Below are positions 16,857 to 21,517 of a stretch of 47,031 bases of DNA, one piece after another. The DNA lies in NCBI RefSeq assembly GCF_003149045.1, contig NZ_QGDU01000029.1, positions 1-47,031 of the forward strand, read 5' to 3'. Below the pieces are notes generated by a model, which worked only from the letters and a program-made list of their open reading frames with translations, did not search any database and was not told the origin of the DNA. Position 1 is the stretch's first letter; the number at the start of each line of letters is the position of its first letter. This DNA is from Fibrobacter sp. UWR4. GTDB lineage: Bacteria > Fibrobacterota > Fibrobacteria > Fibrobacterales > Fibrobacteraceae. A program made the position numbers and the translations under genes.

Positions 16857-17016
16857 ATTTACTCCTTTGTGTTACAAGCTGGATATAAAAACACAAATTT
16901 AATGCACAAATGTTCTAGTGAACAAAATATAACTAATTTTATAAAAATGGGCAATAGGTGCGCCGAAAAAATTTGAGTGACACCTACTGACATGTCGGAT
17001 TATCTATATTCCCCGT

Positions 17017-17299
17017 GTACATAAAGAGTTTTGCTCTTGTTCCTCACCCGAAACTTCGACAATTTCTGAACAGGGAATAAGGCGACGCTCACGCTTGCTA
17101 CCGGGCTATGCTTGGCGGCATCGTTTTGCTATATGCATATTTAATAGATCTGCCTGTACGCAAACGACCCTTTTTGGTGCATCTTGCACCAGCTGCCGTT
17201 TTTACGGCACGCTTTTGGGGCGTGGGTTGTTTGCGTTTATTTGTTCAGGGCAGTCGAAGGCCTCAGGTGAGTAAGCGCATTCAGCCTCACGCCTTTTTT
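17017..17299 (+). ncRNA. Candidate structured non-coding RNA upstream of the restriction-modification operon
   Basis: TATATT at 17005-17010 could be the -10 box. A 13-bp stem pairs ACGCAAACGACCC (17158-17170) with GGGTTGTTTGCGT (17224-17236), one pair being G-U. It encloses two further hairpins: TGGTGCA/TGCACCA (17175-17191, loop TCT) and TGCCGT/ACGGCA (17194-17209, loop TTTT). A smaller hairpin is at 17023-17039. The stretch ends in a terminator-like hairpin, AAGGC/GCCTT (17257-17261 and 17291-17295) with inner GTGAG/CTCAC, followed by six Ts at 17294-17299. Promoter-like start, branched fold and terminator together suggest a stand-alone RNA of about 280 bases. It matches no RNA family I recognise, and no reverse transcriptase lies nearby. 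Confidence 0.4.
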
Positions 17300-17399
17300 C
17301 ATTGATATCGTGTGGAAGTTTCGCAATAAGAACGGCTCTTGCTGGGTTTGCTCTTATTCGCACCTGAAACTTCGACACTTTCTGAACACGAAATAAGAC
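17029..17399 (+). repeat. Pair of about 54-base imperfect direct repeats flanking the candidate RNA
   Basis: Copy 1 (17029-17083) and copy 2 (17347-17399) share TTTGCTCTT, GAAACTTCGACA and TTTCTGAACA in the same order and spacing, roughly 85% alike by eye. Copy 2 also pairs with the sequence just before it. GTGGAAGTTTC (17312-17322) is complementary to 17366-17376 with one mismatch, and ATAAGA (17326-17331) to TCTTAT (17352-17357), giving a long hairpin. Confidence 0.65.
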
Positions 17400-17592
17400 A
17401 AACGTTCGTTGATCTATGGTTGCATAGGCCATGCTGTACCCTGGGCGTACTGTATTCACTCGGTGCCCGGGGAATTCGTGCGTGTATCCACACGTGCGTT
17501 TGCGAGCGTTTTCTTTGCTTGTTTTGACATCGCGGTTTCTTGCTCCCGACTGAGGGTGAACTCGTTCACCTTCAACTCGAGGAACGAGATAC
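17300..17592 (+). promoter_or_regulatory. Hairpin-rich leader before the methyltransferase gene
   Basis: No gene is seen. Besides repeat copy 2 there are hairpins CGTGT/ACACG near 17482-17495 and GGTGAAC/GTTCACC near 17555-17570, then GAGGAACGAG as ribosome-binding region about 9 bases before the ATG at 17593. Such structures could modulate methyltransferase expression; no known operator or C-protein box is recognised. Confidence 0.35.
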
Positions 17593-18600
17593 ATGGCTAA
17601 GTCCAAGAATGACGCAAATGCAAAGTCCATTCAGGAATTTCATTTATTCGCAGGTATAGGCGGAGGAATTTACGGAGGTGAACTTCTTGGACATCAATGT
17701 TGCGCTGGTGTTGAAATCAGTGAGTTTTGTCAGACGGTTTTGAAGCAACGCCAAAAAGATGGCTGGATGAATGAATTTGAAATTTATGGAGATCTTCGTT
17801 CCTTAAACGGCAAAGATTTTAAAGGAAAGTTTGATGTCCTTTGTGGAGGCTTCCCGTGCCAAGCATTCAGTACCGCAGCGCACGGAAAAAATATTGCCGA
17901 AAAAAATCTTTGGGACGAAATGTTCAGGTTCGTAAAGGAATCTGATGCGCCTGTAGTATTTGGTGAGAATGTTGTTTTGCGAGCAATAAGTAAAGCGAAA
18001 ACGGATTTGGAATCTGTTGGGTATAAAGTCAAATTCTGTAGACTGAGTTGTTCTGATTTAGGTGCAGATCATCAGAGAAATCGTTTTTGGCTTTTAGCTG
18101 TAAAAGACGATGAAGTGTTTGATCATATTAAAGAACATATTCTTTCCTTACCCGTTTTCAAGGGAAAGTATTGGAACAAAAATCCTGATCAACTTGGGAA
18201 TGAAGTTGCAACAACGGATCGTCGCGAACAATTAAAAGGTGTTGGCAATGCTCAGTCTCCTTTTGTAGCTGCATCTGCTTTTAGGATTCTTGTAAATCGA
18301 CATATAGAAAATGGTAACTATACAGAAGTTGTTTCCGATGAAGAAATAGCAAAAGTTTTTGAAATTCAGAAAACATGGATTAAGGAAACTTTTGGTGATG
18401 AGATGGGATTGGTTCATACCCCGACTACGATGGCAAATTATTCTGCACCATCCATGATGAAACATCAGGGTTGTAGAAACTTCAAGAAAGTGTTTGATAG
18501 GCCCGCGCCCAAAAACGCAGAATATCTCATGGGATTCCCACTTGGAGCAAGTTCTCCAGAACCTCAAGGCAAAAATAATTTGAAGAAGTGGGGTGCGTAA
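17593..18600 (+). CDS. DNA (cytosine-5) methyltransferase of a LlaJI-like restriction-modification system
   Basis: It transfers a methyl group from SAM to C5 of cytosine in a specific DNA site. The 335 residues show motif I (HLFAGIGGGIYGGELLG, 17-33), motif IV with catalytic Cys89 (GGFPCQAFS), motif VI (FGENV, 123-127), motif VIII (QRNRFWLL, 161-168) and motif X (LKGVGNAQSPF, 214-224). The order is odd. Only about 45 residues separate motifs VIII and X, while a stretch that usually lies between them (PTTMANYSAPS, then NAEYLMGFPLG) sits after motif X at about 277-318. Its stop overlaps the next start (TAATG). The gene is AT-richer than the flanking enzyme genes, which fits horizontal transfer. 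The recognition site cannot be read from sequence. Confidence 0.88.
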   Translation: MAKSKNDANAKSIQEFHLFAGIGGGIYGGELLGHQCCAGVEISEFCQTVLKQRQKDGWMNEFEIYGDLRSLNGKDFKGKFDVLCGGFPCQAFSTAAHGKNIAEKNLWDEMFRFVKESDAPVVFGENVVLRAISKAKTDLESVGYKVKFCRLSCSDLGADHQRNRFWLLAVKDDEVFDHIKEHILSLPVFKGKYWNKNPDQLGNEVATTDRREQLKGVGNAQSPFVAASAFRILVNRHIENGNYTEVVSDEEIAKVFEIQKTWIKETFGDEMGLVHTPTTMANYSAPSMMKHQGCRNFKKVFDRPAPKNAEYLMGFPLGASSPEPQGKNNLKKWGA

Positions 18601-18875
18601 TGACTGCCTATGAAATTTCCCTTCTGCTAAAAAAACTTGGGGTTCGAGAAACAAAGGCAGAGACTTATCCAAACACTTATAGTATAGTAAATGGCTCAAG
18701 TTTTCTTGCTCAGCAGGTAAACAATCGAGATTCTGCATCATGGAAAAAAGCAGAATATATAATTCTAACAGAATCTCATGTTTCAAAAGAAATCATAGAT
18801 GGGTGGAAAAAATTAACAGAGCGAGAACCTCTTCCTAGTGCGATACAAAAAGCTATGCGTTCCAACATCGGATGA
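18600..18875 (+). CDS. Probable N-terminal part of the McrB-like restriction subunit, split off by a frameshift
   Basis: The ATG at 18600 overlaps the methyltransferase stop (TAATG). The 91-residue frame begins MTAYEISLLLKKLGVRETKA and contains SFLAQQVNNRDSASWKKAEY. It ends at 18875 inside the start of the McrB-like frame. Both frames share the region around 18838-18875. If one A of the A5 run at 18847-18851 were absent, this frame would read straight into the ATPase frame (AIQK, then LCVPTSDDKFDVY). I read it as the N-terminal domain of one split gene. A separate small subunit or programmed frameshifting are alternatives. Confidence 0.6.
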   Translation: MTAYEISLLLKKLGVRETKAETYPNTYSIVNGSSFLAQQVNNRDSASWKKAEYIILTESHVSKEIIDGWKKLTEREPLPSAIQKAMRSNIG

Positions 18876-20100
18876 TAAATTTGATGTTTATGATTCTCAA
18901 GGGAAATTGATTGAATCGGATTCGCTAGATAGAGTTATAAGGCATACTCCTGATATAGTTGATTTCTTGAATGAAAGTGAAACTTCTGTAAATTCAAAAT
19001 CAGTCAAAAACGTTTCTTCCTTCACTCCTTCCCAAGTCATCTACTACGGAGTTCCCGGCTGTGGCAAGAGTAAAAAGATTCAGGATATAACCAAAACCGT
19101 TCCTGAGTACAATAAGATTCGAGTTGTATTCCATCCCGGGTACGAGAGCACTGATTTTGTCGGACAGATATTGCCTTGCGTGAGAGAAGATGGGAAGGGT
19201 GTAGATTACAAATTCAATGCAGGGCCGTTTACAAAAATTCTTCGTCGTGCATATCTCAATCCGCAACAGCAATTTTATCTCGTAGTTGAAGAAATTAACC
19301 GTGGCAATGCTGCTGCGATTTTTAGCGATGTCTTCCAGTTACTTGATCGTTTAAAGAATAATGATGAAGATAACATTGGCGGAAATACCTACAAGAAAGG
19401 CTGGAGTCAATACTTCGTTGATAACGTGGATATCAATGGTTATATCCGTAGCGAATCTGCATATCTAAATGAGATTGACGACGAGAATAGAGAAAGCATT
19501 CATCTTGGTGTATTCCCTAGCTCTGATTTGACCTCTACAAGATGTTTCAAGTCTGTCAAGATAAAAGATTGCAATGGCTGCGACATCACTTTCACCGCAA
19601 ATACGGCAATCCGTCTCCCGCCCAATCTTTCCATTTATGCGACCATGAACACTTCCGACCAGAATGTGTTCACTTTGGACAATGCCTTTAAGCGTCGCTT
19701 TGATTCGGAGCTTGTTAAAAATACATTGGATGGCGAACAGCACAAGGCTCAGCGTGAAACGAAAATTGAAAATACTGACATTACTTGGGGTGTGTTCTGG
19801 GAAAAAGTCAATGATTTGATTCTTGAAAAGAATACCTCCATGATCAGCTCCGAAGACAAACGCTTTGGCGCCTACTTTATCATCGGCGAAGAAAAGACGG
19901 ATGATGCGGGCAACAAGTATCGTGAAATTTCCAGAAAACTTTTTGGTGAAAAAGTCCTGGAATATCTTTGGGATGACGCCTTTAAGTACAAGCGCAAGGA
20001 AGTCTTTGCCGAAAGTTGCAAATCTGTGGAATCATTGATTGAAAACTTTGAAGAAGGTGGTTTTGCCGCAATATTCAAGGATGGAATTTTAGGACTGTAA
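18838..20100 (+). CDS. McrB-like AAA+ GTPase/ATPase restriction subunit (LlaJI R1 type)
   Basis: This is the NTP-driven translocase subunit that works with the nuclease encoded next. From a GTG at 18838 it has 420 residues: Walker A GVPGCGKSK (71-79), Walker B FYLVVEEINRGN (146-157; McrB has DEINR, here EEINR), sensor motif MNTSDQN (270-276) and FKRRF just after. These are McrB family marks. No good ribosome-binding site precedes 18838, and the first about 60 residues read like the tail of a preceding domain, so the native start may be the ATG at 18600 in another frame. The gap to the next gene is one base. In LlaJI-type systems an McrB-like protein and a LlaJI nuclease act together on unmethylated sites. 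Confidence 0.85.
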   Translation: MRYKKLCVPTSDDKFDVYDSQGKLIESDSLDRVIRHTPDIVDFLNESETSVNSKSVKNVSSFTPSQVIYYGVPGCGKSKKIQDITKTVPEYNKIRVVFHPGYESTDFVGQILPCVREDGKGVDYKFNAGPFTKILRRAYLNPQQQFYLVVEEINRGNAAAIFSDVFQLLDRLKNNDEDNIGGNTYKKGWSQYFVDNVDINGYIRSESAYLNEIDDENRESIHLGVFPSSDLTSTRCFKSVKIKDCNGCDITFTANTAIRLPPNLSIYATMNTSDQNVFTLDNAFKRRFDSELVKNTLDGEQHKAQRETKIENTDITWGVFWEKVNDLILEKNTSMISSEDKRFGAYFIIGEEKTDDAGNKYREISRKLFGEKVLEYLWDDAFKYKRKEVFAESCKSVESLIENFEEGGFAAIFKDGILGL

Positions 20101-20101
20101 A

Positions 20102-21517
20102 ATGAACGGAGTTCGTTTTAGCGATTTTTGCTGTCGTCAAGACGACTTGCAAAAAGTGAATGAACAATTCGTAGGTGTAAAGTTTGATGGTGGTAAACCA
20201 CGGATTTATTTTCCCTACGGATGTTTTTCTGATTTTGCAAAAACTCCAGATGAAGTTCTGCGAGAAGTTTTCTCAAGTTTGATGAGTGTTCTTTCGGATC
20301 AAAGTTTAATTGCCGATGCGGAAAACTCAAACTACGCCGCTACATCTGAATTTGAGGCCTTGCTGGAATTTCCTTTTCAAGAATTTTTGTATGTGCTGGA
20401 TTATTATCTTAATTTCGGACTGTACAAGGAAACGGAGAAAAGCTATAAGCAGGGGGTTCATGGAAAAATCAACTGGAGCCGTACCATAAAGCAAATTCGT
20501 CCTCAAGTTTACGAGAACGATGATGGTTACGGAGTTGTTTATCTGGACCCCATTTCTTGCTGTAATTCCCAAAATGAAAATCAGCTGGTGACCTTAATCC
20601 ATGAATTCTGTGTTGCACAAGCGCAAAGGTTGATTGGACCTCTTTACAGCATTGAATTGTCTGTGGAGCCGACTCTTGAATTTGACTACGAATTGTTTTC
20701 AGCAGTTCTCATGGAGAAAGTTTCTAAGACTTTTAATGACCGAAAACTTAGGCTGTTCAACGCCATGCAAACGATTGTTGAATTTCTGCATGGAAATTCT
20801 GTGAATGGAACCCTCAGTGAATATTGCTTTGGTGTAACTAGTTTCGCTCCCATTTGGGAAAAAATGCTGGATCGCATTTTTGGAAATCTTCGCGATGGAG
20901 AAACGAAGGATATGTACAATCCTCATTGCGGTTGGAACATCGGTGGCAAGGAACGAAACGCCGATGATCAGAAATTTGCTATGCGTCCGGATACAATCGT
21001 GTGGCAGGGTGACCACATATTTATTGTTGACGCAAAATTCTACACTGGGGATAATCTTCCCTCATCAAGTTCCATCAGCAAGCAGATTGTGTACGGTCAG
21101 TTTGTGGAACAGAAACTGTGTAACGAGAATCTTCGGGATGGCGCGACTTACCAAGACTGCGCAAGCATTGGTAACAAAATTTTCAATGTGTTCTTGTTGC
21201 CCTACTGTTACGAAAATTGCGAAGCAAATCGCTACGAATGCCGCGAGCCTGAAATTTTGAATCAAATCCCCTTTGATCCGTATAAAATGCAGTTTCTGGG
21301 CACAGCCTCTAGCGACTGGATGGACAATTCTAAACCTTACCACAAAATCGTTGGCATCCAGCTGGATGTAAAATCCGCAATGCGGAACTACCGTCGCAAC
21401 GAAATTGCTCAATTCAAGTTGGCGGAAATTGTGAAGGAAAAACTGTTAAAAATTGCAAAGTCTTCTGTATCGGATGAAATGATTGAACAAAATTCTGTTG
21501 CTTTAACTGCCGAATAA
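20102..21517 (+). CDS. LlaJI-family restriction endonuclease subunit (McrC-like partner)
   Basis: This is the nuclease partner of the McrB-like protein. The 471 residues resemble the LlaJI restriction enzyme family. A long N-terminal region includes QEFLYVLDYYLNFGLYKE and GKINWSRTIKQIRP. The PD-(D/E)xK core is visible as MRPDTIVWQGDHIFIVDAKFY near residues 295-317, with Asp in RPD and the acidic-x-Lys as DAK. NEIAQFKLAEIV follows near the C-terminus. The gene starts one base after the upstream stop, in the same operon. Known LlaJI has two methyltransferases for an asymmetric site; only one is present here. Confidence 0.8.
   Translation: MNGVRFSDFCCRQDDLQKVNEQFVGVKFDGGKPRIYFPYGCFSDFAKTPDEVLREVFSSLMSVLSDQSLIADAENSNYAATSEFEALLEFPFQEFLYVLDYYLNFGLYKETEKSYKQGVHGKINWSRTIKQIRPQVYENDDGYGVVYLDPISCCNSQNENQLVTLIHEFCVAQAQRLIGPLYSIELSVEPTLEFDYELFSAVLMEKVSKTFNDRKLRLFNAMQTIVEFLHGNSVNGTLSEYCFGVTSFAPIWEKMLDRIFGNLRDGETKDMYNPHCGWNIGGKERNADDQKFAMRPDTIVWQGDHIFIVDAKFYTGDNLPSSSSISKQIVYGQFVEQKLCNENLRDGATYQDCASIGNKIFNVFLLPYCYENCEANRYECREPEILNQIPFDPYKMQFLGTASSDWMDNSKPYHKIVGIQLDVKSAMRNYRRNEIAQFKLAEIVKEKLLKIAKSSVSDEMIEQNSVALTAE

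Follow-up and report, generated by a model that had tools for sequence, protein, structure and literature searches.

Structured leader RNAs that alter termination by RNA polymerase are known from phage HK022 (put) and from Bacillus (EAR), and C-protein control regulates the methylase operons of restriction–modification systems. To our knowledge, neither put nor EAR has a conserved terminator of its own with an exactly alternative pairing. We analysed a 47,031-nucleotide stretch of Fibrobacter sp. UWR4 DNA (the window), in which a structured RNA lies between a RhuM gene, a member of the PADLOC candidate family PDC-S05, and a LlaJI restriction operon, neighbours that a preliminary description of the sequence had named correctly. 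We propose, with a probability of about 0.7, that this RNA belongs to a new class of RNA switches that act in cis as leaders, namely transcription attenuators for accessory genes; its transcription, its termination and the existence of a signal are what we infer from sequence.

The region from 17005 to 17310 folded at −109.7 kcal/mol (z = −5.3), and 0 of 100 dinucleotide shuffles were as stable. The opposite strand was also stable (z = −4.0), as is usual for inverted-repeat-rich sequence. The preliminary description had placed a structured RNA at 17017–17299 and considered its features a rare outcome of chance; the fold score and the match to a conserved family agree, and the unit of homology is almost exactly 17021–17300. 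The landmarks it had listed are in the sequence: the TATATT box, the inner hairpins, a terminal hairpin ending in six Ts (17294–17299) and a 13-bp outer stem with one G–U pair (ACGCAAACGACCC with GGGTTGTTTGCGT, the latter at 17224–17236). This outer stem exists, yet the main fold lies elsewhere: the bases of its 3′ arm belong to the 5′ side of a longer terminator hairpin shaped like a rod (17217–17293). The stem does no more than give the switching strand Y another possible partner in the window copy and some relatives; its 5′ arm is not family-wide. The main long-range pairings, N:N′ and L:L′ (Table 1), had been missed.

Table 1. Features of the leader element and of the operon that follows it, in window coordinates.
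Feature	Position	Strand	Remarks and basis
−10-like box TATATT	17005–17010	+	Predicted start about 17012–17017; sequence and family frequency
Leader RNA proper	17012–17299	+	5′ switch domain, variable middle, terminator; homology unit, fold z, R1
P2 hairpin	17036–17081	+	CTTGTTCC (17036–17043) with GGAATAAG (17074–17081); covarying stem
N strand	17042–17048	+	Pairs with N′ (17266–17272)
L loop CTTCGAC	17054–17060	+	Pairs with L′ GTCGAAG (17253–17259)
X strand ACGCTCACG, putative antiterminator strand	17085–17093	+	Near invariant; pairs with Y
5′ arm of the 13-bp stem	17158–17170	+	Competitor for Y; direct reading
Y strand GGGGCGTGGGTTGTT	17217–17231	+	Partners X (antiterminator) or Z (terminator)
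Terminator apex	17253–17272	+	L′ and N′; L:L′ and N:N′ pairing
Z strand CAGCCTCACGCC with T6	17282–17299	+	3′ half of intrinsic-terminator-like rod; rod pairing
A′ hairpin, second N–L copy past the terminator	17350–17397	+	N″ 17361–17367, L″ 17370–17376; 37-nt direct repeat
Remaining leader to the methylase start codon	17398–17592	+	Conserved in the G000:C47 copy before an unrelated methylase
C5 DNA methyltransferase, first gene of the putatively controlled operon	17593–18600	+	Pfam DNA_methylase, 1.3e-27
AAA-domain restriction protein	18838–20100	+	AAA_5; PADLOC REase_II, 1.4e-70
LlaJI restriction endonuclease	20102–21517	+	RE_LlaJI, 7e-24

Searching with a covariance model built on the 3′ hairpin (R1) gave 699 copies across 79 of the 80 Fibrobacter genomes (1–25 per genome, median 7), with the window matched at 17212–17299 (E = 9e-28). 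Strong copies also turned up in three more genera of the same family, and a single genus from a second family of the phylum had diverged ones. Partial copies occurred in all 36 genus relatives first searched, in one of them only at E = 0.25, and 104 places were fetched, each with 4.5-kb flanks. The same genome holds a second copy (G000:C47:4612–5307) that is 87–88% identical to window positions 16857–17590. No Rfam 15 family matched the window or 12 further homologous loci at the gathering score, and the single weak match at E ≤ 5 lay outside the element; together with the promoter-like box, the terminator and the strong compensatory changes seen among homologues, this upholds the earlier claim of a new RNA. 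The literature that we covered, a partial sample with a catalogue of 224 candidate motifs lying outside it, held no prior Fibrobacter leader or riboswitch of this kind. From the sequence comparisons, we are nearly certain that this is a real, conserved class of structured RNA. Weak model matches in genus g17 (L278, L279), in which the 5′ domain was absent by eye, were not counted. The exact Y motif was also seen at L152, L154, L162, L202, L220, L223, L233, L244, L248, L270 and L271, on contigs of metagenome-assembled genomes labelled Paludibacteraceae, Bacteroidales, Bacilli or Lachnospiraceae, many of them short and from rumen or horse faeces; these are probably misbinned Fibrobacter DNA.

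Aligned copies open with the −10-like box, a small GAG..CUC hairpin and then P2, whose stem (consensus CUUGUUCUC/GAGAAUAAG) carries a loop consisting of N followed by GAAA-L-UUUC. TAT[ATC]TT stood at the corresponding position in 75 of 95 copies, against 16.5 expected from shuffles, and 7 of 10 P2 pairs changed on both sides in alignment A3. The X consensus, AACGCUCACG, is near invariant across copies, the middle segment ranges from 3 to 160 nt, and the rod hairpin has the consensus Y = GGGGCGUGRGUYGUUUG and Z = CRACUCCACGCC-UUUUUU around an apex GGC-L′-GCC-N′, with a T tract that is conserved in alignments (A2).

Two adjacent long-range helices link the loop of the 5′ hairpin to the apex of the 3′ hairpin in all 68 non-redundant copies, their sequences coming in dozens of versions. 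L:L′ had at least 6 Watson–Crick pairs in each of the 68, in 26 sequence versions (some nested), compared with a mean of 14 and a maximum of 24 copies when partners were re-paired at random. N:N′ was equally universal (mean score 8.3 versus 4.0 on permutation, maximum 4.5), and N and L combined gave a self-match of at least 13 per copy, 15.5 bp on average, whereas matches to other copies came to about 8. In a full-length alignment of 25 copies (A4), 99.5% of cells were paired under the structure comprising N:N′ (100%), L:L′ (99.4%) and X:Y (99.1%), 10 of 23 pairs changed on both sides, and the covariation score was 0.43, compared with 0.10 for shuffles; a shift of 1–3 columns lowered pairing to 28–45%. 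The terminator fold was 98.5% paired in A4, and its rod 100%. Variation in the rod was mostly G–C/G–U exchange in the 3′ strand while Y stayed fixed, which is what a requirement for Y to pair with X as well as Z would produce. In the second-family copies, L:L′ and N:N′ were both retained in a different sequence (by eye and in folds), and X and Y had changed together, to GAACGCGC and GCGCGGCUUC, and still pair. X:Y covariation comes only from these few copies; within Fibrobacter, where the two strands hardly vary, X:Y rests on complementarity and thermodynamics. There was no support for selection against cross-pairing among copies that share a genome, cross-complementarity being equal within and between genomes (2.2% of pairs reached 13). 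Judged from base-pair covariation, which was dominant, and from the variable length of the middle, a decayed coding gene is unlikely. A further reservation of the preliminary description, that the stretch might be a common dispersed repeat, was half right: the element does recur at dispersed sites, yet what recurs there is a leader whose pairs covary.

Two partners are open to Y, the terminator strand Z and the invariant upstream X. When RNAs were truncated at the apex, X:Y was predicted at 9.7 of 10 nt on average, in nearly all copies, and when they extended to the T tract the predicted pairing was split between X:Y (5.5) and Y:Z (7.3). Constrained folds placed the antiterminator lower by 5.4 kcal/mol on average, with 37 of 68 copies within 5, a rough comparison in that one strand is artificially unpaired and the folding energies ignore the pseudoknot. 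Past the terminator, the A′ hairpin was detected by the pattern used in 29 copies, the window included, with L and/or N matching the same apex; the A/A′ likeness could also be kept by gene conversion. A GGAG-type ribosome-binding site was present in 70 copies; 21 of these (30%) had CTCC at most 32 nt upstream of it, versus a background of 8%, and therefore some leaders may also mask the site. At L062, L090, L099, L116 and L137, the apparent N-terminus MEAVMA is read from ATGGAGGCTGTNATGGCT, in which the first ATG overlaps the GGAGG ribosome-binding site, making the second ATG the likely start; CTCCAT upstream of these starts could mask the ribosome-binding site.

The element lies, in almost every copy, upstream of a gene and in its direction, has an intrinsic-terminator-like hairpin with a U tract and includes a mutually exclusive antiterminator that evolution has kept (X:Y, with joint change in the second family), all of which are expected of an attenuator. 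In the mechanism that we propose, RNA would start near 17012, and the stretch would be the 5′ leader of the methylase operon, working as an attenuator with two states. With N:N′, L:L′ and X:Y formed, Y would be kept from Z and polymerase would read on into the gene; with the 5′ P2 hairpin and Y:Z formed, polymerase would stop in the T tract after about 285 nt. The balance might be shifted by a factor or metabolite that recognises the invariant parts (CUUGUUCUC/GAGAAUAAG, AACGCUCACG and GUUUGYGYUUAU/GGUAA), and in the long-leader class, which mostly precedes methylases, A′ past the terminator may serve as a third, competing partner.

The longest downstream open reading frame was co-directional with the element in 98 of 99 copies, and the upstream frame was on the plus strand in 37 and on the minus strand in 54; because the frames were picked from their length and a simple codon score, individual assignments may be in error. 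Gene starts lay at bimodal distances past the T tract (40–65 and about 240–390 nt, some falling outside both), and the short distance of the first group leaves little room for another promoter. Most downstream genes encode DNA methyltransferases of unrelated families, and the remainder largely surface or lipoproteins. Overlapping counts among the 96 downstream proteins scanned gave 23 C5 methylases, 14 of EcoRI type, 7 N6_Mtase, 5 of MmeI type and a few Tsp45I, Eco57I and N6_N4, besides 8 proteins with Fib_succ_major and others with TM2/zinc-ribbon, transglutaminase-like, collagen, GLUG, UvrD or Band-7 domains; restriction systems are thus the largest client group, not the sole one. There was no evident common pathway among these genes. 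A restriction-specific role was not supported, nor was the role in defence that the preliminary description had thought plausible beside a regulatory one: genes of the Fib_succ_major, GLUG, transglutaminase-like, TM2/zinc-ribbon and other kinds follow the same RNA. A leader that acts in cis on the next gene fits the data better than a free-standing defence RNA.

The G000:C47 copy also stands beside a RhuM-type gene, before an unrelated D12-class methylase, and its similarity to the window stops at the start codon. Leader identity that ends at start codons suggests swapping of leaders or genes. The two leaders (L002 and L048) thus precede C5 and D12 methylases, with a RhuM-PLD-type gene opposite in both. 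Elsewhere, EcoRI-like methylase genes were regularly followed by a second gene of about 365–400 amino acids (L105, L107, L109, L113, L120 and others; for example, MKIELKQIKIRDLVEGYENDDETGR or MKTELRKYSVKDICEGFVYNELEGK), perhaps an endonuclease partner. Upstream of the element, L049 and L111, from two different species, had a similar gene of about 500 amino acids (MINEHVMEMLHAGEGLRVEFKKAKD) at 53–64 nt, and the upstream protein of L019/L114 and L134 (MDPNHVPFEELPITNRFMFALVFSH) resembled the Rpn/PD-(D/E)XK transposase family by eye.

Conserved structure alone cannot separate a leader from a small RNA encoded upstream of a gene. The element could be a free-standing small RNA, about 285 nt long, that stops at the terminator and acts in trans while the downstream gene has its own promoter, and as a complete unit with a −10-like box and a terminator, a compact long-range fold and 1–25 copies per genome it would look the part. 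We nevertheless consider this unlikely: neither near-total co-direction with the next gene nor short, bimodal spacing to it is expected of a trans-acting gene, and the N–L hairpin past the terminator of long-leader copies would have no evident use unless transcription continues. Dispersed copies, cargo typical of mobile genes and the presence in one genome of two leaders that share 87% identity as far as the start codons and precede unrelated methylases would also fit an element of recombination or mobility, folded as single-stranded DNA in the manner of attC, REP or MITE sequences and acting in the gain or swap of accessory genes. That reading is improbable, given that the element is always upstream and in a single orientation, that its heavy reliance on G–U pairs favours folding of the coding strand as RNA, and that the −10 box, the T tract and the closeness to start codons fit transcription; moreover, plasmid and phage DNA gave no matches to the element, and a scan of viral contigs for the exact Y motif found none. 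Single copies upstream of genes in one orientation do not suggest an integron attC site, and no integron features were noticed in passing. It is very improbable that the RNA, like put or EAR, acts by processive antitermination over long operons rather than as a simple on/off attenuator; it is large and structured and several downstream genes or operons are long, but others are not, and the element carries a conserved terminator for which an exactly alternative pairing exists.

Two other candidates were rejected. A leader-peptide frame in the window (GTG TAC ... GAA TAA) was dismissed by eye because L loops such as CTAGAC, with their flanks, bring stops in other copies. A type III toxin–antitoxin RNA would consist of tandem short repeats with a ToxN-like gene; the 37-nt repeat in the window had only two copies, 316 nt apart, and the genes that follow encode the methylase, AAA and LlaJI proteins.

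The attenuator reading can be extended, tentatively, to a phylum-specific class of leader in which a private complementary pair in each copy joins the 5′ hairpin to its own terminator, the extra post-terminator segment of the long-leader class forms a three-partner switch, and one common signal, for example phage infection or stress, might govern a large part of the accessory genome, namely restriction systems and surface proteins. If the attenuator reading is correct, one RNA class with hundreds of copies and near-ideal covariation controls a good share of the accessory genes of an important cellulose-degrading genus of the gut, and it opens a way to study how restriction systems are restrained or set free. 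The signal sensed by the RNA would then be a well-posed question, and the copy-specific long-range helices would provide a clean experimental system for co-transcriptional RNA switching.

Compared with known systems, the element resembles attenuating leaders and riboswitches in its position as a 5′ leader, its promoter-like box, its exclusive X:Y and Y:Z pairings, its T tract and the occurrence of one class upstream of many genes. It differs from them in the copy-specific N/L pairing of 13–16 bp between the 5′ hairpin and the terminator apex and in the A′ partner past the terminator, and it has no Rfam family and no known ligand. Unlike put and EAR, it holds its own terminator and a strand switch; unlike C-protein control, it is an RNA leader rather than a protein, and it also precedes non-restriction genes. 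The HMP-PP (thiS motif) riboswitch, with a terminator-embedded aptamer, is likewise reported to have conserved features inside the terminator hairpin (PMC6478431), whereas the Fibrobacter RNA is much larger, precedes other genes, has no Rfam match and was found only in Fibrobacterota. The leader RNA of integron-borne aminoglycoside resistance cassettes (PMC7588185) is similarly a leader on mobile accessory genes; in Fibrobacter, by comparison, each gene has its own copy.
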